From assembly GCF_000373365.1 (NCBI RefSeq), contig NZ_KB891228.1, forward strand, positions 1 to 53,090: a DNA stretch of 53,090 nucleotides, in the 5' to 3' direction. Numbering within the stretch: the stretch's first letter is position 1; the number at the start of each line of letters is the position of its first letter. The translations under genes and the position numbers were made by a program. The notes under the pieces are model-generated. The model ran no database searches. It saw nothing but the letters and a program-made list of their open reading frames with translations, and was not told where the DNA came from. The DNA is from Parafrankia discariae (GTDB lineage: Bacteria > Actinomycetota > Actinomycetes > Frankiales > Frankiaceae). Positions 33,594-46,825 of the stretch are shown here, piece by piece.

Positions 33594-35333
33594 ATGACGC
33601 CGCCCCCCGGCTTGCCGCCGGGCGGCCAACCGCATGCCATGATCCGCAGCGCGCCGGGAGCGGGCGGTGACTCGCCAGAGGAGCGGCGCCAGCGCCGGGC
33701 CAGCCCGGCGGGGCTGACCCACCGCGAGACCATGCGGGCCCTCTCCGGCCTGCTGATGGCCCTGTTCGTGGCGATGATCTCGTCCACGATCGTGACGAAC
33801 GCGCTGCCCAGGATCGTCTCCGATCTGCACGGCAGCTCGACCAGCTACACCTGGGTGATCACGGCGACGCTGCTGGCGATGACCGCCACCACGCCGATCT
33901 GGGGCAAGCTGGCGGACCTGTTCAACCGCAAGGTGCTGGTCCAGACGGCCCTCGGGATCTTCGTGGCCGGGTCCGTCCTGGCCGGGCTGTCGACGTCCAC
34001 GAGCATGCTCATCGCGTTCCGGGTGGTGCAGGGCGTCGGGATCGGCGGGTTGTCGGCGCTGGTCCAGATCGTGATGGCGGCGATGATCGCGCCGCGTGAG
34101 CGCGGACGCTACAACGGCTACCTGGGCGCGACCTTCGCCGTGTCGACGGTCAGCGGTCCGCTTCTCGGCGGTGTGATCGTCGACATCCCGGGCCTGGGCT
34201 GGCGCGGCTGCTTCTACCTGAGCCTGCCGATCGCCATCGTCGCCTTCGTGATTCTCGCGCGGACGCTGCGGCTGCCCACGGTGCGCCGGGAGATCTCCAT
34301 CGACTACGCGGGCGCGACCCTGATCGCCGCCGGGGTGAGCGCCCTGCTGATCTGGACGTCGCTGGCGGGGTCGAGCTTCCCGTGGATGTCGGCGCAGACG
34401 GCGCTGCTGCTCGGTGGGGGGCTGACGCTGCTCGCCGTGGCCGTCTGGGTCGAGGCGCGGGCCGCCGAGCCGATCGTCCCGCTGCGGCTGTTCCGTAACC
34501 GGACGGTCGTGCTGGCCGTGGCCGCGAGCGCCTGCGTCGGCACCGTCATGTACAGCGCGAACCTGCTGTTCAGCCAGTACTTCCAGCTCGGCCGCGGGGA
34601 GAGCCCGATCGCGTCGGGGCTGCTCACGGTGCCGATGGTGGGCGGCCTGGCCGTCGCGTCGCTGGTGGTGGGACGGGCCATCAGCCGCACCGGCTACTGG
34701 AAGCGCTACCTGATCGCCGGCACGATCCTGATCGGGACGGGCCTCGTCCTGCTGAGCACGATCAGCGAGCACACGAACCTCGTCGCGGTGTCGGTGTTCG
34801 CCAGCCTGGTGGGCGCCGGGCTGGGGATGACCCAGCAGAACCTGGTGCTCGCCGCGCAGAACTCCGCCGACACCGCCGATCTCGGGGTGACCAGCTCTAC
34901 CGTGGCGTTCTTCCGCAGCGTCGGGGGGACGAGCGGCGTCGCGGCGCTCGGCGTGCTGCTCACGCACCGGGTCAGCTCGTCGTCCGTCGCCGGACTGCGC
35001 TCGCACGGCCTGCCGGCCGACACTCTTGGGGACGGCGGCTCCGTGCCTGATCCCACAGCACTGCCCGGCCCGGTCGCCGAGGTCGTGCACCACGCGTACG
35101 GGCTCGGCGTCTCCGACGTGTTCCTCGCCAGCACGCCGCTCGCGCTGCTCGCGCTGGTCGCGGTGCTGTTCGTGCCGGCCACCCGGCTGCGTTCCAGCGC
35201 GGGGGTCGCGGGCGGCGAACGTGTAACGCCCGAGCAGGCCCACCCCGGAGGGATCGCGCCGGACCCGGACGAGGATGTGGAACGGACCGCGTGGCGGGCG
35301 GCCGCCGGTGTCTCGGCCGAACCTGCACCATAA
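33594..35333 (+). CDS. MFS drug exporter, DHA2 (EmrB/QacA) type
   Basis: The 579-aa protein has 14 predicted membrane helices, as in the DHA2 family of proton-driven multidrug exporters. Seen: LMALFVAMISSTIVTNALPRI, the motif A-like WGKLADLFNRKVL, the motif C-like GATFAVSTVSGPLLGGVIVD (in part) and a later ADTADLGVTSSTVAFFRSVGG. It has a ~45-residue hydrophilic N-terminus; ATG at 33639 is an alternative start and no clear ribosome site decides. The C-terminus is a ~45-residue acidic tail. It is followed after 7 nt by its TetR gene. Confidence 0.9.
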   Translation: MTPPPGLPPGGQPHAMIRSAPGAGGDSPEERRQRRASPAGLTHRETMRALSGLLMALFVAMISSTIVTNALPRIVSDLHGSSTSYTWVITATLLAMTATTPIWGKLADLFNRKVLVQTALGIFVAGSVLAGLSTSTSMLIAFRVVQGVGIGGLSALVQIVMAAMIAPRERGRYNGYLGATFAVSTVSGPLLGGVIVDIPGLGWRGCFYLSLPIAIVAFVILARTLRLPTVRREISIDYAGATLIAAGVSALLIWTSLAGSSFPWMSAQTALLLGGGLTLLAVAVWVEARAAEPIVPLRLFRNRTVVLAVAASACVGTVMYSANLLFSQYFQLGRGESPIASGLLTVPMVGGLAVASLVVGRAISRTGYWKRYLIAGTILIGTGLVLLSTISEHTNLVAVSVFASLVGAGLGMTQQNLVLAAQNSADTADLGVTSSTVAFFRSVGGTSGVAALGVLLTHRVSSSSVAGLRSHGLPADTLGDGGSVPDPTALPGPVAEVVHHAYGLGVSDVFLASTPLALLALVAVLFVPATRLRSSAGVAGGERVTPEQAHPGGIAPDPDEDVERTAWRAAAGVSAEPAP

Positions 35334-35340
35334 TCAAGGG

Positions 35341-36033
35341 GTGACACGCAGCCGTCGGCCCGAACAGACGGCCGATACCCGACAGGCACTACTGGCCGCG
35401 GCAAGGCGCCGGTTCGCCGAACAGGGCTATGCCGCGACCGGCACCGAAGAGATCGTCGCGGACGCGCGGGTCACCCGGGGAGCGCTTTACCATCATTTCC
35501 GCGACAAGGCCGACCTGTTCCGCACGGTCATGGAACAGGTCGCGATGGAGGTCGCGGAGCAGCTGGTCGCGGGTGAGCTGGCCCGCGGCGCGGAGCTGCC
35601 CAGCGACGCCTGGACGCAGCTGCGTACCGGTTTCCAGTCGCTGCTGGACATCTCCACCACCGACAGCGACTTCCAGCGCATCGTGCTCATCGACGGCCCG
35701 GCGGTCCTCGGCAACGACGCCTGGGACCAGCTCGTCGAACAGCACGGCTACCGCCTGCTCTCGGAGTGGCTCGAGCGGGCCGTGGCCGAGGGCCGCATCG
35801 ACCCGCTGCCGGTGGCACCGCTGACCCGGCTCGTCGCGGCGTTGCTGTCCGAGGCGAGCCTGTACACCGCGCGGGCGGCGGATCCCGACCGGGCCCGCAC
35901 CGATGTCGGGATCGTGCTCGACCGTCTCCTGCGCGGTCTGGGCCGGCGTGGCGGCGACCTGGCCGACCAGCCCGCCGTCAGCGCCGGCGAACCCGCCGTC
36001 AGCGCCGGTGTTCCTCCCGCGTCCGACGACTGA
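35341..36033 (+). CDS. TetR family regulator of the exporter
   Basis: The 230-aa protein starts at GTG 35341. The N-terminal helix-turn-helix is typical (RFAEQGYAATGTEEIVADARVTRGALYHHFRDK, in part GTEEIVADARVTRGALYHHF). The C-terminal domain (DFQRIVLIDGPAVLG, ALLSEASLYTARAADPD) is of the kind found in repressors of efflux pumps. The C-terminus has an in-frame duplication (PAVSAGEPAVSAG). Coupled behind the exporter gene, it probably binds the repeats at 33493-33548. Confidence 0.9.
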   Translation: MTRSRRPEQTADTRQALLAAARRRFAEQGYAATGTEEIVADARVTRGALYHHFRDKADLFRTVMEQVAMEVAEQLVAGELARGAELPSDAWTQLRTGFQSLLDISTTDSDFQRIVLIDGPAVLGNDAWDQLVEQHGYRLLSEWLERAVAEGRIDPLPVAPLTRLVAALLSEASLYTARAADPDRARTDVGIVLDRLLRGLGRRGGDLADQPAVSAGEPAVSAGVPPASDD

Positions 36034-36188: not shown

Positions 36189-37196
36189 TCAGGCACCCAT
36201 CCGCGCGGCCCGGATGGACTCCTTGAGGGAACCCATCGTCGCCAGCACGGCGGACGTCTCATAGCCGCAGTGCGCCATGCAGTTGGCGCAGCGCGGGTCC
36301 TTGCCGCGGCCGTAGGCGTCCCAGTCCGTCGTCTCGACGAGCTCCTTGTAGGACGTCACGTACCCGTCCGACATCAGGTAGCAGGGCTTCTGCCAGCCGA
36401 ACAGCGAGTAGCTCGGAATCCCCCACGCGGTGCAGGAGAGTTCCTTCTTGCCCTCGAGGAAGTCCAGGAAGACCGGCGAGTGGTTGAGGCGCCACTTCTT
36501 GCGCCGACCGTCGCCGAACACCTTCGAGAACATCTGCCGGGTCTCCTCGACCGCGAGGAAGTGCTCCTGGTCAGGAGCCTTCTCGTAGGCGTAGCCCGGC
36601 GAGAGCTGGATCTGGTCGACCTTGAGGTCGTCGTTCAGGAAGTTGATGATGTCGATGACATCCTGCGGGCTGTCGTTGTTGAAGAAGGTCGAGTTGCTGC
36701 CGACCTGGAAGCCCGCGGCCTTGGCCGCCTTGAAGGCCTCGATGCACTCGTCGAACGTGCCCGGCTTCTCGACGATCGCGTCGTGACGCTCCTTCAGCCC
36801 GTCGATGTGCAGCACGAAGGTGAAGTACGGCGACGGAGTGAAGTTCTTCAGCTTCTTACGGAGCAGCAGCCCGTTGGTGCAGAGGATGACGAACTTCTTG
36901 CGCTTCACGAGGGCGTTGACGATCTCATGCATCTGAGGGTGCATCAACGGCTCGCCGCCGGCGATCGCGACGACGGGCGCCCCGCACTCCTCCACCGCGG
37001 CAAGTGCGTCCTCGACGCTCATACGCTGCTTGAGGACGGACGCGGGGTGCTGGATCTTGCCACAACCCGTGCAGGACAGGTTGCAGGCGAACAGTGGTTC
37101 GAGCTCCAGAACGAGCGGAAAGTGCTTCCGGCGGAGCAGCTTCTGCTTCGCCAGATACGTTCCAACGCGGAGTGAGTACCGCCAGGCGACAGCCAC
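36189..37196 (-). CDS. hpnH: Adenosyl-hopene transferase HpnH (radical SAM)
   Basis: The 335-aa radical SAM enzyme joins the 5'-deoxyadenosyl group to hopene (diploptene), the first step to C35 hopanoids. The 4Fe-4S motif is CNLSCTGC (Cys38, 42, 45), with PVVAIAGGEPLMHPQ following. Further conserved Cys occur in ELSCTAWGIPSYS, QKPCYLM and DPRCANCMAHCGYE. Codon use is less extreme than its neighbours, as expected for a well-conserved enzyme. GTG start with a GGGGGG run upstream. It is transcribed separately from the hpnG-ispH/shc genes, behind a 560-nt gap. Confidence 0.96.
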   Translation of the reverse strand: MAVAWRYSLRVGTYLAKQKLLRRKHFPLVLELEPLFACNLSCTGCGKIQHPASVLKQRMSVEDALAAVEECGAPVVAIAGGEPLMHPQMHEIVNALVKRKKFVILCTNGLLLRKKLKNFTPSPYFTFVLHIDGLKERHDAIVEKPGTFDECIEAFKAAKAAGFQVGSNSTFFNNDSPQDVIDIINFLNDDLKVDQIQLSPGYAYEKAPDQEHFLAVEETRQMFSKVFGDGRRKKWRLNHSPVFLDFLEGKKELSCTAWGIPSYSLFGWQKPCYLMSDGYVTSYKELVETTDWDAYGRGKDPRCANCMAHCGYETSAVLATMGSLKESIRAARMGA

Positions 37197-37756: not shown

Positions 37757-39793
37757 TCATCTCCGTTCGGAGAGCGGTCGACGGACCTCCTTCGGCAGGT
37801 GGAAGGAGATCGATTCCGCGCCCACGGACCGGACCGACACCGAGGCCGACCCCAGCCCCGACAGGGCCGCCGTCAGCTCCTCGACGAGCAGCGGCGGCGC
37901 GGACGCCCCGGCGGAGATGCCGATGGTCCGCACCCCCTTGAGCCAGTGGAGCTGGACGTCCTCGACACTCTCGACGAGATGCGCGGCGGCGCCGTCCCGC
38001 TCGCTGACCTCGACCAGCCGGCGCGAGTTCGAGCTGTTCTCCGAGCCGACGACCAGGACGAGCTCCGCCTCGGCGGCCACCCGGCGGACCGCGTTCTGCC
38101 GGTTGGACGTCGCGTAGCAGATGTCGGCCGAGCCGGGGCCGACGACGGCCGGGAAGCGGTCGCGCAGCGCGTCGACGACCTCTTCGGCCTCGTCCACGGC
38201 GAGCGTGGTCTGCATGAGGTAGGTGACCCGCTCGGGATCCGCGACCGCGAGGTCCTCGACCGCCTCGGCGGACTCGACCAGCTGGATCCGCCCCGGCGCC
38301 TCGCCGAGGGTCCCGTCCACCTCCTCGTGACCGGAGTGTCCGATGAGCAGGACGGTGTCACCGCGCGCGGTGAACCGCCGCGCCTCGGCGTGCACCTTCT
38401 CCACCAGCGGACAGGTGGCGTCAATGACCGCCAGCTCACGCTCGCCCGCCTCGTCCCAGATCGCGGGGGCGACGCCGTGCGCGGAGAACACCACGGTCGC
38501 GCCGGGCGGGACCTCGTCCAGTTCCTCGACGAAGACCGCGCCGCGGCTGGCCAGGTCGGCCACGACGTGGGTGTTGTGCACGATCTGCTTGCGGACGTAG
38601 ACCGGCGCGCCGTGGATCTCCAGCGCCCGCTCGACGACTTCGATGGCGCGCTCGACCCCGGCGCAGAAGGCGCGCGGCTCGGCGAGGAGCAGCCGCCGGC
38701 TGCTGACCGCCTCCACCCAGGTCCGGATCGCCGGGCCGAGCTGGTTGATCGTGCGCAGCCCGGCCACCCCGCGGCGGACCAGGTCGAGCCGGCCGAGCGG
38801 CTGGTCAGGGGTGTCCACGATCACCCGGATCACCGCGAACGGACGGGTGCCGGCACCGGGGGGGAGAGCGGCGGACTCCATGTCCACGGCGATGGCGCCG
38901 GTCGCGGCCAGCTCGGCGCGGACCGCTCCGACCGCCACCTGGGCCACCGACACGACCGGGCCGACGTGCACCCGCAGGCCGGCCCGGCGCAGCTCGCCGG
39001 CCAGCAGCGGGGCGGTCGGGCAGGTCCCGGTCACCGTGCCGTCGGCGAGGCGCACCTCGCTCGCGACGACCACGTCACCGGGCTTCGTCTCGGCGGTCAG
39101 CCCGCCGGCGAGACCGACGACGGCCACCGCGTCCGGCCGGGCGTCGCGGATCACGCGGTTCGCGCGGTGCGCCTTGTCGGGACCCATCCCGGTCCGCACG
39201 ATCACGGTGCCGGGCGGCAGGTCCGCCCGCCCGATCGCGAAGCCCTCGAGGCGCAGCGGCGCGGCGATGACGAGGCGCGGCGTGCGGGGCGCCGGCTGGA
39301 CCGGCGACCCCTTGGCCCCCATCGCGCGGACGCGGGCCGGGGTCACGTCCTCGGCCGGCCCCCCGTGCTCGGCCGCGGTCCCCGCCGCGGCCACCGCCCG
39401 GGTCGCCAGCGGGCTCGCGACCGGGGCCGCCCCCCGCCGGAACCCGGCCGACGGCAGCGCCGAACCGGCCCGCGACGGTCCACCGGCCGGCGGCACCGCT
39501 CCGGCCTGCTCGGGGATGGCCGCCCGCGGCGCCGCACCGGTGTGCACCGCGGCACCCGCGGGCAGCACCGGCGCCGGCGCCACCGCCGGTACGACCGGCG
39601 AGGCGGGCACGACCGATGACGCCGGCACGACGGGCGACATGGACGAGGCGGGCACGACGGGCGACGCGGGCCGCACGGCGGCCGGGCCGAAGCCCGGCGG
39701 TCCGATGCTCTGCGCCGCGCCTTCGCGCGGGGTGACGGGGGGCGAACCGCCGAGGTCGGCGTCGCCCCCGTTGTCTGCTGCCGGGATGCTCAT
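37757..39793 (-). CDS. ispH: Fused HpnG nucleosidase/phosphorylase and IspH (HMBPP reductase)
   Basis: The 678-aa protein starts at an ATG overlapping the shc stop (ATGA). Residues 1-170 are a Pro/Ala/Val-rich disordered stretch with VVPASS repeats. Residues ~171-365 are an HpnG-like nucleoside phosphorylase domain (VVGLAGGLTAETKPGDVVVASEV in part, AVDMESAAL), which removes adenine from adenosylhopane. Residues ~366-678 are a full IspH: FCAGVERAIE (Cys377), HNTHVV, DATCPLV (Cys461), GHSGHEEVDGT, CYATSNRQ (Cys559) and GISAGASAP. IspH makes IPP and DMAPP, the precursors for squalene. One protein therefore serves both the start and a late step of hopanoid synthesis. Confidence 0.93.
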   Translation of the reverse strand: MSIPAADNGGDADLGGSPPVTPREGAAQSIGPPGFGPAAVRPASPVVPASSMSPVVPASSVVPASPVVPAVAPAPVLPAGAAVHTGAAPRAAIPEQAGAVPPAGGPSRAGSALPSAGFRRGAAPVASPLATRAVAAAGTAAEHGGPAEDVTPARVRAMGAKGSPVQPAPRTPRLVIAAPLRLEGFAIGRADLPPGTVIVRTGMGPDKAHRANRVIRDARPDAVAVVGLAGGLTAETKPGDVVVASEVRLADGTVTGTCPTAPLLAGELRRAGLRVHVGPVVSVAQVAVGAVRAELAATGAIAVDMESAALPPGAGTRPFAVIRVIVDTPDQPLGRLDLVRRGVAGLRTINQLGPAIRTWVEAVSSRRLLLAEPRAFCAGVERAIEVVERALEIHGAPVYVRKQIVHNTHVVADLASRGAVFVEELDEVPPGATVVFSAHGVAPAIWDEAGERELAVIDATCPLVEKVHAEARRFTARGDTVLLIGHSGHEEVDGTLGEAPGRIQLVESAEAVEDLAVADPERVTYLMQTTLAVDEAEEVVDALRDRFPAVVGPGSADICYATSNRQNAVRRVAAEAELVLVVGSENSSNSRRLVEVSERDGAAAHLVESVEDVQLHWLKGVRTIGISAGASAPPLLVEELTAALSGLGSASVSVRSVGAESISFHLPKEVRRPLSERR

Positions 39794-41967
39794 GACGTCG
39801 ACCTGCCGGTGAGGGTCACGTACCGACCGAGTGCCGTCACGGGAAACACCAGCCGGTACAGGTGATAGTTGATGGAGAAGTCCCAGGGGAAGCCCGTGCC
39901 GGTGAACTGCGGCTCGTCCCAGGTGCCGTCGGCGCGCTGGGTGTCGCAGAGCCAGCGCACGCCGCGCTCGACCGCCGCCCACTCCGCGGTGCCGGACGCC
40001 GGTTCGGCGGCCAGCAGCGCCAGCAGCGCCCAGGCGGTCTGCGAGGCGGTCGGCTCCCCGCGCCCGATCCACTTCTCTTCGCGGTAGGAGCGCAGGTCCT
40101 CGCCCCAGCCGCCCTCGGGCGTCTGGTGCTCGACCAACCAGTGCATCGCGGAGACGATCGCCGGGTGCTCCGCGCTGACCCCCGCGGAGATCAGCGCCGG
40201 CACGACCGCACCGGTGCCGTAGACGTGGTTCACGCCCCAGCGACCGAACCACGACCCGCCGGCCTCCTGGTTGTCCAGCAGCCAGCGGACCCCGCGCTGG
40301 GTGATCGGGTGGTCGGAGCGGCCCAGCAGCGCGAGCATCTCGACCATGTGCGCGGTGACGTCCGCCGACGGCGGGTCGACGACCTCGCCGAAGTCGCAGA
40401 ACGGGATCTTGGTGACCAGGGTGCGCACGTTGTCGGCGTCGAACGCGGCCCAGGCCCCGTTCGACGAACGCATGCCCACCGACCAGTCGACGCCCCGTTC
40501 CGCGGCGGCGCGCAGCCGGGCGGCGAGCTCCGGGTCCGCGGCGGCGATCGTGCCGGTCGCGGCGGAGGCCGCCGAGGCAGCCGCCGAAGCGGCGGCCGAG
40601 CCGGGGCCGGAGCCGTCGGAGTGGTCCACCGGGCCGTGGCCGTCACCGAGCAGGCGGCGGATGGCGATGACCACCTCGGCGGTGTCGTCGACGTCCGGGT
40701 AGAAGTCGTTGTCGAACTCGAACGCCCAGCCGCCCGGCGCGAGGGTGGGACGGCGCACCGCCCAGTCACCGGCGACGAGCACCTCCTCGTCGGCGAGCCA
40801 GCGACCGGCCCGGACCATCGCCGGGTGGTCACCGCCCAGGCCGGCGTCCGCGAGCGCGACGACGGCCAGCGCCGTGTCCCAGACCGGCGACTGGCACGCC
40901 TCGATGCGGCGCACCGTGCCCTCCGGGGTCTCCTCGCGGATCGTGAACCGGTCGAGGGCGCGGAACGCCATCGAGATCACCGGGTGGTTCAGGGGGTAGC
41001 CCATGAGGTGCAGGGCCATGATCGAGTAGACCATCGGCGGCTGGATGCCGCCCCAGCAGCCGTCCGCCTCCTGCCGGGCGATCACCCACTCCGCGGCGCG
41101 GCGCAGCGCGAGCCGGCGCAGTGGCTGGAAGGGCCGCTTCTCGTAACGGTGCAGCACCGCGTCGAGCCGTTCGAACGCGCCGGCCCAGCTGCGCACCGGC
41201 GACTTCGGCGCCTTGGGTGCCGGGACCCGCAGCTCGTCCAGGGTGAACCCGAACGAGCGCACCGGCCGCAGCGAGCCGACGATCGTCAGCGCCACCACGG
41301 TCTGGCGGGCCCAGCAGGCGAAGTCGTAGATGTTCAGCGGGAACCACGGCGGCAGGAAGGTCATCTCCGCCGGCAGCACCGGGACGTCGTCCCAGGACCA
41401 CTCGCCGAACAGCGCCAGCCAGATCCGGGTGAACACCCGGGCGGCGGCGATGCCACCCGCGGAGCGCACCAGCTCGGCGGCGGAACGCATGTGCGGGGCG
41501 TCCGGGTCGTCCCCGGCGAGCCGCAGCGCGACGTAGGCCTCGATGGTGGTCGACAGGTCGGACGGGCCGCCGTAGAAGGTGGCCCAGCCGCCGTCGGAGA
41601 GCTGCTGGGAACGGATCCAGCGTCCGGTCTCAGTGGCCGTGGACGGGGTCAGGATGCCGAGGAACTGCCGAAGCATGAGGTCCTCGGCGTCCATGGTGAC
41701 GTTGGTCTCCAGCTCGCCCTTCCACCAGCCCTCCTCAGCCTGCAGGGAGAGCAGATGGTCGCGGCCGCGGCGCATCGCGTCCACCGCCGGGTCGGCCGGC
41801 GCGCCGGTCGACACCGGGTCGGTCGACACCGGGTCTGTCAGCACCGCGCCGGCGGGCGCGAACGATCCGGCGTCCGCCGACGGCCGTGCCACCGACGGGC
41901 TCGGGATCTTCGGGTTCTGCGCCGCGGCCGTCGGGGCAGCCGAGGACTGGTCCGAGGTCAGGCTCAT
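39790..41967 (-). CDS. shc: Squalene-hopene cyclase
   Basis: The 725-aa membrane-associated cyclase has the catalytic DVDD (residues 425-428) and several QW repeats (for example QLSDGGWATFYG, QEADGCWGG, QEAGGSWFGRWG, QTPEGGWGED). It converts squalene to hopene. The first ~60 residues are Ser/Ala/Pro-rich with a DPVST repeat. A ~40-residue Ala/Ser/Gly insert (about 441-480) follows the catalytic motif. The gene begins 85 nt after the polyprenyl synthase gene and couples to hpnG-ispH by ATGA. Confidence 0.97.
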   Translation of the reverse strand: MSLTSDQSSAAPTAAAQNPKIPSPSVARPSADAGSFAPAGAVLTDPVSTDPVSTGAPADPAVDAMRRGRDHLLSLQAEEGWWKGELETNVTMDAEDLMLRQFLGILTPSTATETGRWIRSQQLSDGGWATFYGGPSDLSTTIEAYVALRLAGDDPDAPHMRSAAELVRSAGGIAAARVFTRIWLALFGEWSWDDVPVLPAEMTFLPPWFPLNIYDFACWARQTVVALTIVGSLRPVRSFGFTLDELRVPAPKAPKSPVRSWAGAFERLDAVLHRYEKRPFQPLRRLALRRAAEWVIARQEADGCWGGIQPPMVYSIMALHLMGYPLNHPVISMAFRALDRFTIREETPEGTVRRIEACQSPVWDTALAVVALADAGLGGDHPAMVRAGRWLADEEVLVAGDWAVRRPTLAPGGWAFEFDNDFYPDVDDTAEVVIAIRRLLGDGHGPVDHSDGSGPGSAAASAAASAASAATGTIAAADPELAARLRAAAERGVDWSVGMRSSNGAWAAFDADNVRTLVTKIPFCDFGEVVDPPSADVTAHMVEMLALLGRSDHPITQRGVRWLLDNQEAGGSWFGRWGVNHVYGTGAVVPALISAGVSAEHPAIVSAMHWLVEHQTPEGGWGEDLRSYREEKWIGRGEPTASQTAWALLALLAAEPASGTAEWAAVERGVRWLCDTQRADGTWDEPQFTGTGFPWDFSINYHLYRLVFPVTALGRYVTLTGRSTS

Positions 41968-42052: not shown

Positions 42053-43069
42053 TCAGCGATCTCGTTCGGTCACGAACCGCGCCATCGCCAGCAGTTCCGC
42101 CTCGGCCGACGCCGGGATCGAGATCGAACGCAGCGCGTTCTCACACGCCTTGAGCTGGCGGTCCGCCTCGGCCGTGGTCCAGTCGCGGCCACCGGCCCGC
42201 TCGACCAGGGCCGCGATGCGGTGCAGGTCGTCCTCGGAGGCCTCACCCTCCTCGGTGAGGAAGGCCCGCAGCTCGTCGGCGTCGGCTCCGCCCGCCTCGA
42301 GCGCGACGACCACCGGCACCGACTTCTTCCGTGAGCGCAGGTCGTTGAGCACCGGCTTGCCGGTCACCGCCGGGTCGCCCCAGATGCCGAGCAGGTCGTC
42401 GATGAGCTGGAAGGCGGTGCCCAGCCGCGAGCCGTACTCGGCGAGGCCGTCGACGACCTCGTCGGGCGCGCCGGCGAGGACCGCGCCGAGGGAGGCCGAG
42501 CAGGCCAGCAGAGCGCCGGTCTTGCCGTCCTCCATGTGCAGCGTCTCCGCCACCGAGACGTCCGAGCGGCTCTCGAAGAGGAGGTCCTCGGCCTGCCCGC
42601 GGACCAGGTCCTGGACGCCCGCGCCGAGGATCACCGCGGCGCGCCGGCCCGGCTCGCCCTCCACCTCGAGCAGGACCTGGGTGGCGAGACCGAGCAGCGC
42701 GTCACCGGCGAGGATGGCGCCGTCGGCACCGAAGACCGTCCAGGCGGTGGCCCGGTGGCGGCGCTCGCGGTCGCCGTCCATCAGGTCGTCGTGCAGCAGT
42801 GAGAAGTCGTGCACCAGCTCGACCGCGACCGCGGCCGGCAGGCCGACCTCGGCCGGGGCGCCGGCCGCCTCGGCGGAGAGCAGCGCGAGCGCGGGCCGGA
42901 CGAGCTTGCCGCCGCTGCCGGACAGCGGCTCACCGGCCGCGTCCACCCAGCCGCGGTGGTAGGCGACGACGTGGCGCAACCGGGGGTGGAGCCGGTCCAC
43001 CGTGGCGCGCAGCGCGGGCACCGCCAAGGCACGCCCGCGCTCGATCGCTTCCGGAACCGTTGTGGTCAT
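42053..43069 (-). CDS. Polyprenyl (farnesyl/geranylgeranyl) diphosphate synthase
   Basis: The 338-aa trans-isoprenyl diphosphate synthase has the first Asp-rich motif DDLMD (residues 94-98), GGKLVRPAL for IPP binding, and the second motif QLIDDLLGIWGD. The first motif has two residues between the Asp groups, as in most bacterial FPP/GGPP synthases; chain length cannot be set from sequence alone, but farnesyl-PP for squalene is the expected product here. ATGA overlap with the hpnE stop. Confidence 0.94.
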   Translation of the reverse strand: MTTTVPEAIERGRALAVPALRATVDRLHPRLRHVVAYHRGWVDAAGEPLSGSGGKLVRPALALLSAEAAGAPAEVGLPAAVAVELVHDFSLLHDDLMDGDRERRHRATAWTVFGADGAILAGDALLGLATQVLLEVEGEPGRRAAVILGAGVQDLVRGQAEDLLFESRSDVSVAETLHMEDGKTGALLACSASLGAVLAGAPDEVVDGLAEYGSRLGTAFQLIDDLLGIWGDPAVTGKPVLNDLRSRKKSVPVVVALEAGGADADELRAFLTEEGEASEDDLHRIAALVERAGGRDWTTAEADRQLKACENALRSISIPASAEAELLAMARFVTERDR

Positions 43070-44802
43070 ACCGGGAATCCCCCCGTGGACTGAGACGTCT
43101 CTGTCTGGGCCGTCGCTGTGTGTGGCGTCGCTGTGTGTGGCGCCGCCGGTTCAGCCGCCGTCGCCGCGGCGCTGACCGTCCGCACGTCCACCGTGCCTGC
43201 CTCCGTCGCGACGGCGGAGGCCGGGGTGAGACCTTCGGTGTCCCCAGAACGGGTCGGTGTCTCGCCGCGCGACTCGCCACGTTGCCCAGGCGGGCCGTGG
43301 CCGACCGCAGACAGTGTGCTCCCAGCTACCCCCATGCCGGCGAGCGTCTCACGGGCAGCAACGATCCCGCTACGCACAGCGCCTTCCATGGTCGCCGGCC
43401 ACCCGGTGTCCGTCCAGGTGCCGGCCAACGCGAACCCGGGCAGGCTGGTCGCCTGATCCGGGCGCAACCCGAGCGAACCGGGCGCCTGCCGGAAGGTCGC
43501 GGTGCGCTCCCTGGTCACGAAGACCTCGAGCAGCTCGGCGGCCCGGGCAGCCGGGAACAACCGGCGCATCTCCTCGACGAACAGCTTGCGCAGGTCGTTC
43601 GCGGGCTGGTCGACCCATTCCTCCGCCGCCGACTGCGACAGCGCGAGGTACTGGGCCCCGGGCGGGCCCACCTCGGCGAGGCCGGAGGAGACCGTCCGGT
43701 CGAAGATCCACTGGATCGGCGAGCCGACGACCGCGAGCATCGGGCCGTCGAGCACCGGCCGATCGAAGATCATGTGCACGTTGATGATGGGCGAGACGCC
43801 GAGCTCGCGCAGCTTCGCCGGGTCGACGCCGGAACCCTCGGGCAGCAGGCCGGCGGCGGCCGGCGGCGGGACCGCCAGCACCACCCCGTCCGCGGTCAGG
43901 ACCTCGCCGCCGTCCAGGGTGACCTCCCACCCGGTCGCCGACCGGGTGATCGCCCGGGCCTTGGTCGCCGTGCGGACCGTGCCGCCCGCCGCCTCCAACG
44001 CCCGCACCGCCGCGTCGCCGTGCAGCTCCTGCAACGGGGCCTCGGGCCAGCCCAGGTCACCCGCATCGGCCCCGTCGAGCAGGCCGGTGCGGACCACCTT
44101 GGCGGCCAGGCCGAGCGAGGCCTCGGCGGCCGGCGCGTTGAGGGTGGCGACGGTCAGCAGCTCCCACAGCGCCTCGGTGGCCGCGGCGCTCTGGCCGTGC
44201 CGGCCGAGCCAGCCGCCGAAGGAGTCACCGTCCACCGAGGGGTCCCGCTGGTCGAGGCGGCCGATCCGGAAGGCCGCCAGCGCCGCGCGGATCCGGTCGA
44301 CGGGCGGGATCGCCCGGTACCCCAGCAGGGCCGGGGCGAGGTGCAGCGGGGCCGGCAGCGGCACCCTGGTCCGGCGCAGCCTGGTCCGGGTCAGCGAGTC
44401 GGCGATCAGCACCTCGACGTCCAGCCGGTCCTGGAGCGTGGTGAGGTGGGTGACCCCCAGGCGGGCCAGCAGCCCGCGGTAGGCGGTGCAGCACCGCATG
44501 AACACGTGCTGACCGGTGTCGATCCACAGCGTGCCGTCCTGGAACTTGCGCTGGAACGAGGTCGTCGCCCCGCCCAGCCGCGGCCGGGCCTCCAGCAGCA
44601 CCGCCTCGGCGCCCTCGTCCGCCGCGACCAGCGCGGCGGCGATGCCGGCGAGGCCGCCGCCGACGACGACCACCCGCCGCCCCCGCGCCGCGGCACCGGC
44701 CCCCGTCCCGGTGCCGGCTCCCGTCCCGGGGCCGCTTCCGCTTCCGGTCCAGGTTCGAGTTCCCGACCGGTCGCCCGGCCGCGTGTCCCCCTCGGTGCTC
44801 AT
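43066..44802 (-). CDS. hpnE: Hydroxysqualene-related FAD amine oxidoreductase HpnE
   Basis: The 578-aa flavoprotein completes squalene formation by reducing hydroxysqualene. The Rossmann motif VVVVGGGLAGIAAALVAAD lies after a ~40-residue Gly/Thr/Ser tail-like N-terminus (SGSGPGTGAGTGTGAG). Later motifs are LLEARPRLGGATTSF, WIDTGQHVFMRCC and FALAGTWTDTGWPATMEGAV near the end of the fold. About 90 residues of Thr/Ala/Pro-rich sequence follow (HTATPHTATAQTETS). ATGA couplings to hpnD and the polyprenyl synthase genes fix both ends. Confidence 0.94.
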   Translation of the reverse strand: MSTEGDTRPGDRSGTRTWTGSGSGPGTGAGTGTGAGAAARGRRVVVVGGGLAGIAAALVAADEGAEAVLLEARPRLGGATTSFQRKFQDGTLWIDTGQHVFMRCCTAYRGLLARLGVTHLTTLQDRLDVEVLIADSLTRTRLRRTRVPLPAPLHLAPALLGYRAIPPVDRIRAALAAFRIGRLDQRDPSVDGDSFGGWLGRHGQSAAATEALWELLTVATLNAPAAEASLGLAAKVVRTGLLDGADAGDLGWPEAPLQELHGDAAVRALEAAGGTVRTATKARAITRSATGWEVTLDGGEVLTADGVVLAVPPPAAAGLLPEGSGVDPAKLRELGVSPIINVHMIFDRPVLDGPMLAVVGSPIQWIFDRTVSSGLAEVGPPGAQYLALSQSAAEEWVDQPANDLRKLFVEEMRRLFPAARAAELLEVFVTRERTATFRQAPGSLGLRPDQATSLPGFALAGTWTDTGWPATMEGAVRSGIVAARETLAGMGVAGSTLSAVGHGPPGQRGESRGETPTRSGDTEGLTPASAVATEAGTVDVRTVSAAATAAEPAAPHTATPHTATAQTETSQSTGGFPV

Positions 44803-45701
44803 GCCGCTCTCGCCTCCGTTCTGCCGGCGAGGCTGCGAGCGGCCACGACCGCCTTCTCCCAGCCCGGCAGGGACAGCCGGCGTTCCAGGACCGCGGTCGG
44901 GTCCTGCCGGATGCGCCGGTTCAGGCGCAGGTAGATCCCGGCCATGGCACCGCAGCAGGCGGCGCTGCGCCGGTCGAGCAGGCCGAGCAGCGCCAGGCCC
45001 CGCGAGTACCACTCGTCGGCCCGCGCGGCACAGTCGCGCAGGTAGTCCACCAGCGCGTCCTCCGGCCCGCCGAGACGCCCGGCCGGGCTCACCACCAGGG
45101 TGACGCCGGCCTTCTCCAGCTCCGTCGAGGGCAGGTAGATCCGGCCGTTGAGGAGGTCCTCGCGGACGTCGCGCAGGATGTTGGTCTGCTGCAGCGCCAC
45201 GCCGAGCGCGTCGGCGATCTCCGCCGAGCGGGCGTCGCCGGCCGAGCCGTCCACGCCGAAGATGCCCAGCGAGAGCCGGCCGATGGTGCCCGCGACCAGT
45301 CGGCAGTAGCCGACCATGTCGTCGAACGTCTCGTAGGTGGCCCCGTGCACGTCGCTCTCGACCCCGTCGGCCAGCTCGATGAAGGCCTCCATCGGGACGG
45401 GGAAGCGGCGCGCGGTGTCCGCGAGGGCCACCATCACCGGGTCGGAGCTGTTGATGTCCAGCGCGCGGACGTCGGCGCGGACCTTCTCCAGCCCGGCGAG
45501 CTTCTCGTCGTTCGGCAGGTCGCCGTCGCCGATGTCGTCGAGGCGGCGCGCCAGCGCATACACCGCGGACAGCGCGCCGCGCTTCTCGGCGGGCAGCAGC
45601 CGGATGCCGTAGCTGAAGTTGCGCGCGGCCTCCCGCGTCAACGCCTCGCAGGAGGCATAGGCCTCGGCGACGGTGGAGCTGCCCGGCACACCCGCGCTCA
45701 T
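44799..45701 (-). CDS. hpnD: Presqualene diphosphate synthase HpnD
   Basis: The 300-aa squalene/phytoene synthase-family enzyme joins two farnesyl-PP to presqualene-PP. The Asp-rich motifs are RRLDDIGDGD (Asp55, 56, 59) and NILRDVREDLLNGRIYLP. DDMVGYCRLVAGTIGRL is the family's conserved middle. The ATG overlaps the hpnC stop as ATGA, so the much longer open frame upstream is not used. Confidence 0.95.
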   Translation of the reverse strand: MSAGVPGSSTVAEAYASCEALTREAARNFSYGIRLLPAEKRGALSAVYALARRLDDIGDGDLPNDEKLAGLEKVRADVRALDINSSDPVMVALADTARRFPVPMEAFIELADGVESDVHGATYETFDDMVGYCRLVAGTIGRLSLGIFGVDGSAGDARSAEIADALGVALQQTNILRDVREDLLNGRIYLPSTELEKAGVTLVVSPAGRLGGPEDALVDYLRDCAARADEWYSRGLALLGLLDRRSAACCGAMAGIYLRLNRRIRQDPTAVLERRLSLPGWEKAVVAARSLAGRTEARAA

Positions 45702-46825
45702 CTGGCACCCTCCGGGACGTCGACGTCGGACCCGGCGGGCGCCGGAGCCGGGACGGCACTCGCCACCGCGGCGCCCCCGCCGGGGGCGGTGGTGGCGGGA
45801 ACGGTGCCGCCGGGAACAGCGGTGGTACTGGAAGCCGCGGCGGCGGTGCTGGAAGCCGTGGTGCTGGGAGCCGTGGTGCTGGGAGCCGTGGCGGCGGTGC
45901 CGGCGGCGCGGGCGGCCGCGGCCTGCCCGGGCACCAGCGACCGGGCCCACGCGGCCGCGGCGAAGGCCGCCATCCGAGGCTTGGGGGCCTTGGGCGCCCC
46001 GCCGAGCATGTCGTAGTCGGCGCGGCGGATCGCGTCGAGCGCGGCCCGGCCGCCCCCCACGAATCCGGCCATCGCCAACCGCAGCCGGCCGCCGACCAGG
46101 TTCACCAGCGGTGCCCCCTGGTCCAGCAGGGTCCGGGCCCGGGCCACCTCGAAGGCCATCAGGTGCCGTACCGCGGGCGAGGCGACCGGCGCGGCCAGGT
46201 CGGCCTCGGTCACCCCGAACGCGTCCAGGTCCTCCAGCGGCACGTAGATCCGGCCGGCCTCGAGGTCCTCGGCGACGTCCTGGAAGTGCTCGGCGAGCTG
46301 CAGCGCGGTACAGATGCGGTCGGACAGCGCGATCCGCGCCGGGGTCGCCAGACCGAACACCCCGAGCACCATGCGGCCGATCGGATCCGCCGACAGCGTG
46401 CAGTACCGCACGAGGTCCTCGTAGGTGTCGTACCTGGTGACGACCTGGTCCTGCCGGTTGGCCTGCACAAGCCGCCGGAACGGCTCGGCCGGCAGGTCGC
46501 AGGCCCGCACGGTGCGCGCGAGCCGACGGTGGACGGGCAGCTTCGGCTCGCCGCCCGACCAGATCAGCTCGAGGTCGGCGGCAAGCTCGTCGAGCAGTGC
46601 CAGGCGGTCACCGGGGGCCTCGTCGCCGATGTCGTCGACGAGACGTCCGAAGACGTACAGCGCGTTGAGGTGATCGCGGGTCGCGGCGGGCAGCAGCCGC
46701 GAGGCGACCGGGAAGTTCTCGGCGGGCGCGGCCAGCAACACCTGCTCGGTGGGCGTGGTGAGGTCGGTCGCGCCGGGGTGGGCAGACGGTCGCGGTGGGC
46801 CGGTTCGGGCGTCGATTGCGGTCAT
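45698..46825 (-). CDS. hpnC: Hydroxysqualene synthase HpnC
   Basis: The 375-aa protein is the first gene of the leftward squalene operon, with a good AAGGAG site before its ATG. HpnC converts presqualene-PP to hydroxysqualene. Motifs: GRLVDDIGDE (Asp64, 65, 68), YEDLVRYCTLSADPIGRMVLG and EHFQDVAEDLEAGRIYVP. The family fold ends near residue 300. The remaining ~75 residues are a Thr/Ala/Ser/Pro tail encoded by 15-18-bp repeats (about 45800-45900). Confidence 0.95.
   Translation of the reverse strand: MTAIDARTGPPRPSAHPGATDLTTPTEQVLLAAPAENFPVASRLLPAATRDHLNALYVFGRLVDDIGDEAPGDRLALLDELAADLELIWSGGEPKLPVHRRLARTVRACDLPAEPFRRLVQANRQDQVVTRYDTYEDLVRYCTLSADPIGRMVLGVFGLATPARIALSDRICTALQLAEHFQDVAEDLEAGRIYVPLEDLDAFGVTEADLAAPVASPAVRHLMAFEVARARTLLDQGAPLVNLVGGRLRLAMAGFVGGGRAALDAIRRADYDMLGGAPKAPKPRMAAFAAAAWARSLVPGQAAAARAAGTAATAPSTTAPSTTASSTAAAASSTTAVPGGTVPATTAPGGGAAVASAVPAPAPAGSDVDVPEGAR

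Follow-up and report, generated by a model that had tools for sequence, protein, structure and literature searches.

The window analyzed here is a stretch of 53,090 nucleotides from Parafrankia discariae, a soil-dwelling member of the nitrogen-fixing Frankia group (assembly GCF_000373365.1, contig NZ_KB891228.1). On its minus strand, at positions 37757..39793, it carries a gene in which hpnG and ispH are fused. Translation revealed no internal stop across its 678 codons. The 678-residue product consists of a low-complexity leader (residues 1 to 170; 39284..39793), an HpnG-type nucleosidase domain (residues 171 to 362; 38708..39283) and a complete IspH domain (residues 363 to 678; 37760..38707), in that order. 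Pfam PNP_UDP_1 matched residues 197 to 327 with 48.0 bits (cut-off, 25.1), and LYTB (PF02401) matched residues 369 to 644 with 302.1 bits (cut-off, 24.5). An earlier note on this DNA had described both domains, with intact motifs, in one polypeptide joining isoprenoid supply to hopanoid side-chain processing; the Pfam and NCBIfam matches, the conserved active-site positions and the unbroken frame bear this out. The fused protein would thus be a two-enzyme polypeptide, a predicted 4-hydroxy-3-methylbut-2-enyl diphosphate (HMBPP) reductase with a predicted HpnG-type nucleosidase.

An AlphaFold model of the fused core had a predicted local distance difference test score (pLDDT) of 92.2 and a predicted template modeling (TM) score of 0.87. 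Its top structural matches were Escherichia coli IspH and the IspH:HMBPP complex (3ke8; TM score of 0.95 by target length), and 5′-methylthioadenosine/S-adenosylhomocysteine (MTA/SAH) nucleosidases were also matched. The leader is 75% P/A/G/S/V with PVVPAS-type repeats, in line with the repeat region of about 170 residues described earlier, and is probably disordered. Against five relatives of the same genus, the ratio of nonsynonymous to synonymous substitution rates (dN/dS) was 0.38 to 0.85 for residues 1 to 157. This weak constraint does not support the leader being a conserved domain, and translation may begin internally, at Met158. No transmembrane stretch was apparent in the fused protein, with a peak 19-residue Kyte-Doolittle mean of 1.49. 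Given this value and the weakly constrained leader, the idea that the fusion co-localizes pathway steps at the membrane found no support.

IspH is the HMBPP reductase that catalyzes the final step of the methylerythritol phosphate (MEP) pathway, the conversion of HMBPP to isopentenyl diphosphate (IPP) and dimethylallyl diphosphate (DMAPP). The IspH half passed TIGR00216 (ispH_lytB; 298.1 bits, cut-off 187.85) and NF002190 (395.9 bits, cut-off 389), and it matched solved IspH chains with E values as low as 4.7e-102. We take C377, C461 and C559 to correspond to E. coli C12, C96 and C197, the three [4Fe-4S] cysteines, and H41, H74, H124, E126, T167, S225, N227 and S269 (E. coli numbering) to be the HMBPP-site residues; E126 and T167 are named in the Protein Data Bank titles of matched IspH structures. 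Neither the three cysteines nor any of the eight HMBPP-site residues varied among the 53 fused sequences, a set without duplicates and without sequences whose IspH is short or broken (e.g., L066, L112 and L117). In total, 13 of 14 IspH active-site positions were invariant in the fused sequences, compared with 14 of 14 in 53 stand-alone ones. The dN/dS of the fused IspH half relative to the same five relatives was 0.08 to 0.11, a sign of purifying selection.

Two IspH matches were found in the genome, the fused one and a stand-alone protein of 365 residues (L001), which share 55.6% identity. The fused gene is therefore not the sole ispH of this genome. IspG had one match, and Dxs had one full match and two weak partial ones.

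The nucleosidase half is also under purifying selection, with a dN/dS of 0.10 to 0.28 in the same comparison. Among 55 fused sequences, E306 was present in 55, D327 in 54 and E183 in 46, the other 9 having a gap. These are presumably the Glu/Glu/Asp catalytic residues, as in MTA/SAH nucleosidase (MTAN); E306 and D327 aligned with an MTAN, and E183 lay outside that alignment. In the AlphaFold model this half had a pLDDT of 95.8, and its best Foldseek matches were MTA/SAH nucleosidases. The genome contains one HpnG-type match at an E value of 1e-10 or better and three PNP_UDP_1 matches in all.

The fused gene lies in a hopanoid operon, as the earlier note had read it. Co-directional on the minus strand are hpnC for squalene synthase (45698..46825; TIGR03464, 318.5 bits), hpnD for presqualene diphosphate synthase (44799..45701; TIGR03465, 292.4 bits), hpnE for hydroxysqualene dehydroxylase (43066..44577, where the frame start is not necessarily the true start; TIGR03467, 362.9 bits), a prenyl diphosphate synthase gene (42053..43069), shc for squalene-hopene cyclase (39790..41967; TIGR01507, 704 bits), the fused gene, and hpnH for the radical S-adenosylmethionine enzyme adenosyl-hopene transferase (36189..37196; TIGR03470, 511 bits), 560 bp downstream of the fused gene. 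Except for the prenyl synthase, these neighbors all scored above the cut-offs of the models named. At the junction between the cyclase and fused genes the minus strand reads GTCATGAGC; the TGA of shc and the ATG of the fused gene have bases in common in an ATGA overlap (39790..39793), confirming the overlap with the cyclase gene reported earlier. Around the fused loci of named relatives (see below), where the available stretch was limited, shc and hpnH were each found in 22 of the 25.

The operon prenyl synthase clearly belongs to its family; its subfamily is not clear, with both models below cut-off. Its best NCBIfam match was 'family 2 encapsulin nanocompartment cargo protein polyprenyl transferase' (NF041169, 418.2 bits, cut-off 450), and NF045549 gave 294.6 bits (cut-off 475). 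In Candidatus Frankia meridionalis, part of a prenyl synthase and shc occupy one frame (L102 253-3264 (+) and L057 1-2826 (+), a single record), possibly an ids-shc fusion after truncation, possibly an assembly fault. Adjoining the operon in the window, at 33594-36033 on the plus strand, are a DHA2-type major facilitator superfamily efflux pump and a TetR-type regulator, with matches below the curated cut-offs.

The fusion is not confined to this genome. All 35 Frankiaceae genomes have IspH, and 32 of them, P. discariae included, have both the fused locus and a stand-alone copy; a stand-alone ispH only was found in G014 (94% complete), G016 (63%) and G026 (87%). That a sequencing or assembly error had joined two genes, which the earlier note had named as a possible flaw, is next to impossible: apart from one relative, G022, with a broken frame, nothing points that way, least of all in the window, and of the 34 Frankiaceae loci read besides that of the window, 31 have the same in-frame join, one of them with the frame broken further on and five of them from single-contig genomes.

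A scan of named relatives with the HpnG half, from which the best 80 of 437 were kept and in which some records are shared with the Frankiaceae loci, gave 25 fused and 55 unfused loci. The fused ones belong to Parafrankia, Frankia, Pseudofrankia, Pseudonocardia sp. CNS-139 (with a broken frame) and various metagenome-assembled genomes (MAGs), whose labels include Thermoleophilaceae, Conexibacter, Acidimicrobiaceae (gene truncated where the contig ends), Streptosporangiaceae, Nanopelagicales and Jatrophihabitans; Streptomyces and Actinacidiphila account for most of the unfused loci. Beyond the family of P. discariae, 26 distinct genomes, told apart by group code or record title, carry the fusion. 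Of these, 24 were read as loci, and for G045 and G192 the judgment was based on shared open frames; G127 and G229 each count as one with the loci lying in them, and G164 was left out on account of a weak HpnG match (2.2e-12). A further IspH was found in 25 of the 26, the exception being G309, with one partial match. In a draw of 396 genomes from the phylum, at least 5 had a full-length fused match, namely P. discariae itself and four genomes outside its class, each of which read as a single frame; this count is a lower bound, covering the matches listed at an E value of 1e-125 or better. The fusion thus spans at least two classes and several families of the phylum.

The two kinds of IspH were compared in a careful tree, in which a branch with support of 100/99, present in 200 of 200 bootstrap trees, divides the 53 fused halves from 53 stand-alone copies; the fused halves form a paralogue clade of their own. 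A quick tree that added IspHs from the phylum draw placed four unfused proteins (L218, L219, L227 and L240) inside this clade. L218 adjoins dxs, L227 lies between a prenyl synthase gene and dxs, and L240 lies between shc and hpnH, so that three of the four adjoin dxs, a prenyl synthase gene or shc and hpnH. The fourth, L219 (1498-3027 (-)), is in a terpene-type locus and lies between an apparent cyclic-nucleotide-domain encapsulin-type protein and a 2-methylisoborneol-type terpene cyclase, as labeled from the reading frames. In L240 (1-3954) the order is shc-ispH-hpnH with no hpnG part, which could represent a fission or an unfused relic. The places of L240, L227 and L219 are unsure because they were flagged as long branches in the quick tree. 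If the placements are right, the clade would consist of pathway-dedicated IspHs, most of the sampled ones being fused to HpnG. On the HpnG tree the fused or unfused state needs 4 changes, with weak support and a program warning that long branches meet; Streptomycetaceae may have lost the IspH half or may never have carried it.

The join itself might be neutral, an old accident kept by descent, with two working enzymes for which co-expression in the operon is all that counts. This would fit the variable leader and the fact that the steps do not follow one another in the pathway. In L240, moreover, the slot flanked by shc and hpnH is taken by an unfused ispH, and the 55 unfused named loci, mostly from Streptomycetaceae, manage without a fusion. 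Nevertheless, the fusion persists in one IspH clade spanning at least two classes, and among the loci read an unfused ispH occupies that slot only in L240, so we regard neutrality as unlikely.

The genes behind hpnH were found by direct queries in loci with at least 1.5 kb of sequence there, i.e., 46 of the 55 unfused loci and 33 fused ones; the other 9 unfused and some fused loci had too little sequence, and some fused records were counted twice. dxs was found behind hpnH in 26 of the 46 unfused loci, 14 of which also had ispG. In fused loci it was found in 0 of 20 from Frankiaceae and in 1 of 13 from elsewhere (L111), the latter group having less sequence. Lineages thus seem to differ in which MEP steps entered the hopanoid operon.

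Another explanation is that the IspH half is a neofunctionalized [4Fe-4S] reductase acting with HpnG on the side chain, either converting ribosylhopane to bacteriohopanetetrol or supplying an electron for the HpnH step. Its fusion partner is the enzyme expected to make ribosylhopane, and the ribosylhopane reductase is still unassigned according to PMC12583986. An aminotransferase like that of L116 was found behind hpnH in 31 of the 46 unfused loci versus 2 of the 33 fused ones, in which some records count twice. This contrast is confounded with phylogeny and locus length, as fused loci from outside Frankiaceae have about 2 kb of sequence behind hpnH and the majority of unfused loci of known length about 2.9 kb, and the aminotransferase is present in two fused loci, L114 and L123. 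Moreover, the HMBPP-binding residues are kept, and the known chemistry of IspH is the reductive dehydroxylation of an allylic diphosphate. We therefore consider a new substrate very improbable. If true, the side-chain reductase reading would name the missing hopanoid enzyme.

We favor the explanation that the fused gene encodes a paralogous HMBPP reductase that is reserved for hopanoid synthesis and joined to HpnG, which would tie isoprenoid supply to the operon, and we give it a probability of about 0.72. The C-terminal half would be a second HMBPP reductase making IPP and DMAPP for hopanoids, while the N-terminal half would remove adenine from adenosylhopane to yield ribosylhopane; both are probably catalytically active. 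Made in step with shc, the fused enzyme would couple extra IPP and DMAPP to expression of the hopanoid operon, which makes sense since each hopanoid takes six C5 units. A substrate channel is unlikely, as the steps of the two halves do not follow one another. The dxs and ispG genes adjoining many Streptomyces hopanoid operons could have a comparable supply role. In nodules of F. alni, the squalene lipid cluster FRAAL1427-FRAAL1435 and the MEP-pathway proteins Dxs and Dxr are reported to be more abundant (PMC8951365); the fused protein itself is not named among the nodule proteins in the excerpts of that paper. In Frankia CcI3, sqhC and hpnC mRNAs increase under high oxygen (PMC4058466).

Several observations weigh against this dedicated-reductase explanation. 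The IspH half narrowly missed two of the three long IspH equivalog models (NF002189, 436 versus 444; NF002188, 416.5 versus 420), and S226, which adjoins an HMBPP-site residue, is Ala in 24 of the 53 fused sequences. In the same genomes the stand-alone IspH is somewhat more constrained, with a dN/dS of 0.04 to 0.06. In G022, the break in the fused frame (L066 3347-6032 (+)) falls within the IspH half, some 65 residues into it. Apart from the incomplete MAG G309, every searched genome with the fusion also has a stand-alone ispH, so IPP need not come from the fused half. Nor does a second IspH require the fusion: in the Streptomyces-like family f18, which has an unfused hpnG, G118 has two and G149 three, in a sample of 11 genomes among the matches listed, nine of them with one IspH match at an E value of 1e-125. 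Finally, the NCBIfam HpnG model TIGR03468 matched residues 193 to 333 with 76.9 bits, far below its cut-off of 187.1, and for this reason we call this half HpnG-type rather than a TIGR03468 member. That cut-off is unsuited to the class, as 0 of 296 genomes of the class reach it and an unfused Streptomyces HpnG adjoining shc and hpnH scores only 84.6 bits.

Some of these observations would also fit a fusion in which one half is catalytically dead and acts as a scaffold or regulator, namely the presence of a stand-alone ispH and the relaxed constraint on the fused IspH relative to it. The earlier note had seen a stand-alone ispH together with an inactive fused half as fatal to its proposal; the stand-alone gene does exist, but the fused half bears no sequence sign of inactivity. 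With cluster cysteines and HMBPP-site residues invariant and a dN/dS of about 0.1, the IspH half does not look dead; the nucleosidase residues of the other half are nearly invariant, and we hold a dead half to be highly unlikely.

The architecture itself is not new, because Rao et al. 2015 (PMC4746011) list a "UDP-IspH from Frankia sp." Their UDP/PNP-IspH proteins of Frankia sp. QA3, EUN1f and EAN1pec have the same two domains and come from the same bacterial group, and EUN1f is also among our fused loci (L101). They describe such fusions as restricted to individual species or to strains within one species, and as possibly random, although they point out that the partners are part of phosphorus metabolism; the word 'hopanoid' occurs 0 times in the excerpts of their paper. 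Here, by comparison, the partner is of HpnG type, the gene, itself a candidate second and dedicated ispH, sits in a hopanoid operon, and several families carry it. What this analysis adds is who the partner is, its operon, the clade of paralogues and how widely the fusion occurs; the HpnG identity, operon, paralogue status and spread were not found in print among the matches listed from open-licence papers.

Other fusions offer parallels. IspH-UbiA likewise joins IspH to a second protein, for which a local IPP/DMAPP supply has been suggested, with another partner and in other phyla. Organisms with IspH-RPS1 are reported without another ispH, whereas a stand-alone ispH is present here. IspDF fusions are a precedent for joining non-consecutive isoprenoid steps (PMC13001223), although both of their halves lie within the MEP pathway. 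Streptomyces hopanoid loci likewise have MEP genes (dxs, ispG) adjoining shc-hpnG-hpnH; they differ in that these encode other MEP steps, as separate genes, and hpnG is unfused. A passage on Acidobacteria in PMC5462960 has ispH with shc and hpnH where the Results name ispA, and we did not use it.

The barrier that keeps oxygen from nitrogenase in Frankia vesicles is believed to be made of hopanoids (Berry et al. 1993, cited in PMC4447401 and PMC4058466), and proteins of the hopanoid cluster rise in nodules (PMC8951365). A fusion left open in the literature as possibly random is an old, recurrent and testable arrangement, and as a natural fusion of supply and demand it is something that metabolic engineers could try. 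If our explanation is true, an HMBPP reductase dedicated to hopanoid synthesis and joined to a hopanoid enzyme would be an example of earmarking a shared precursor for one product.
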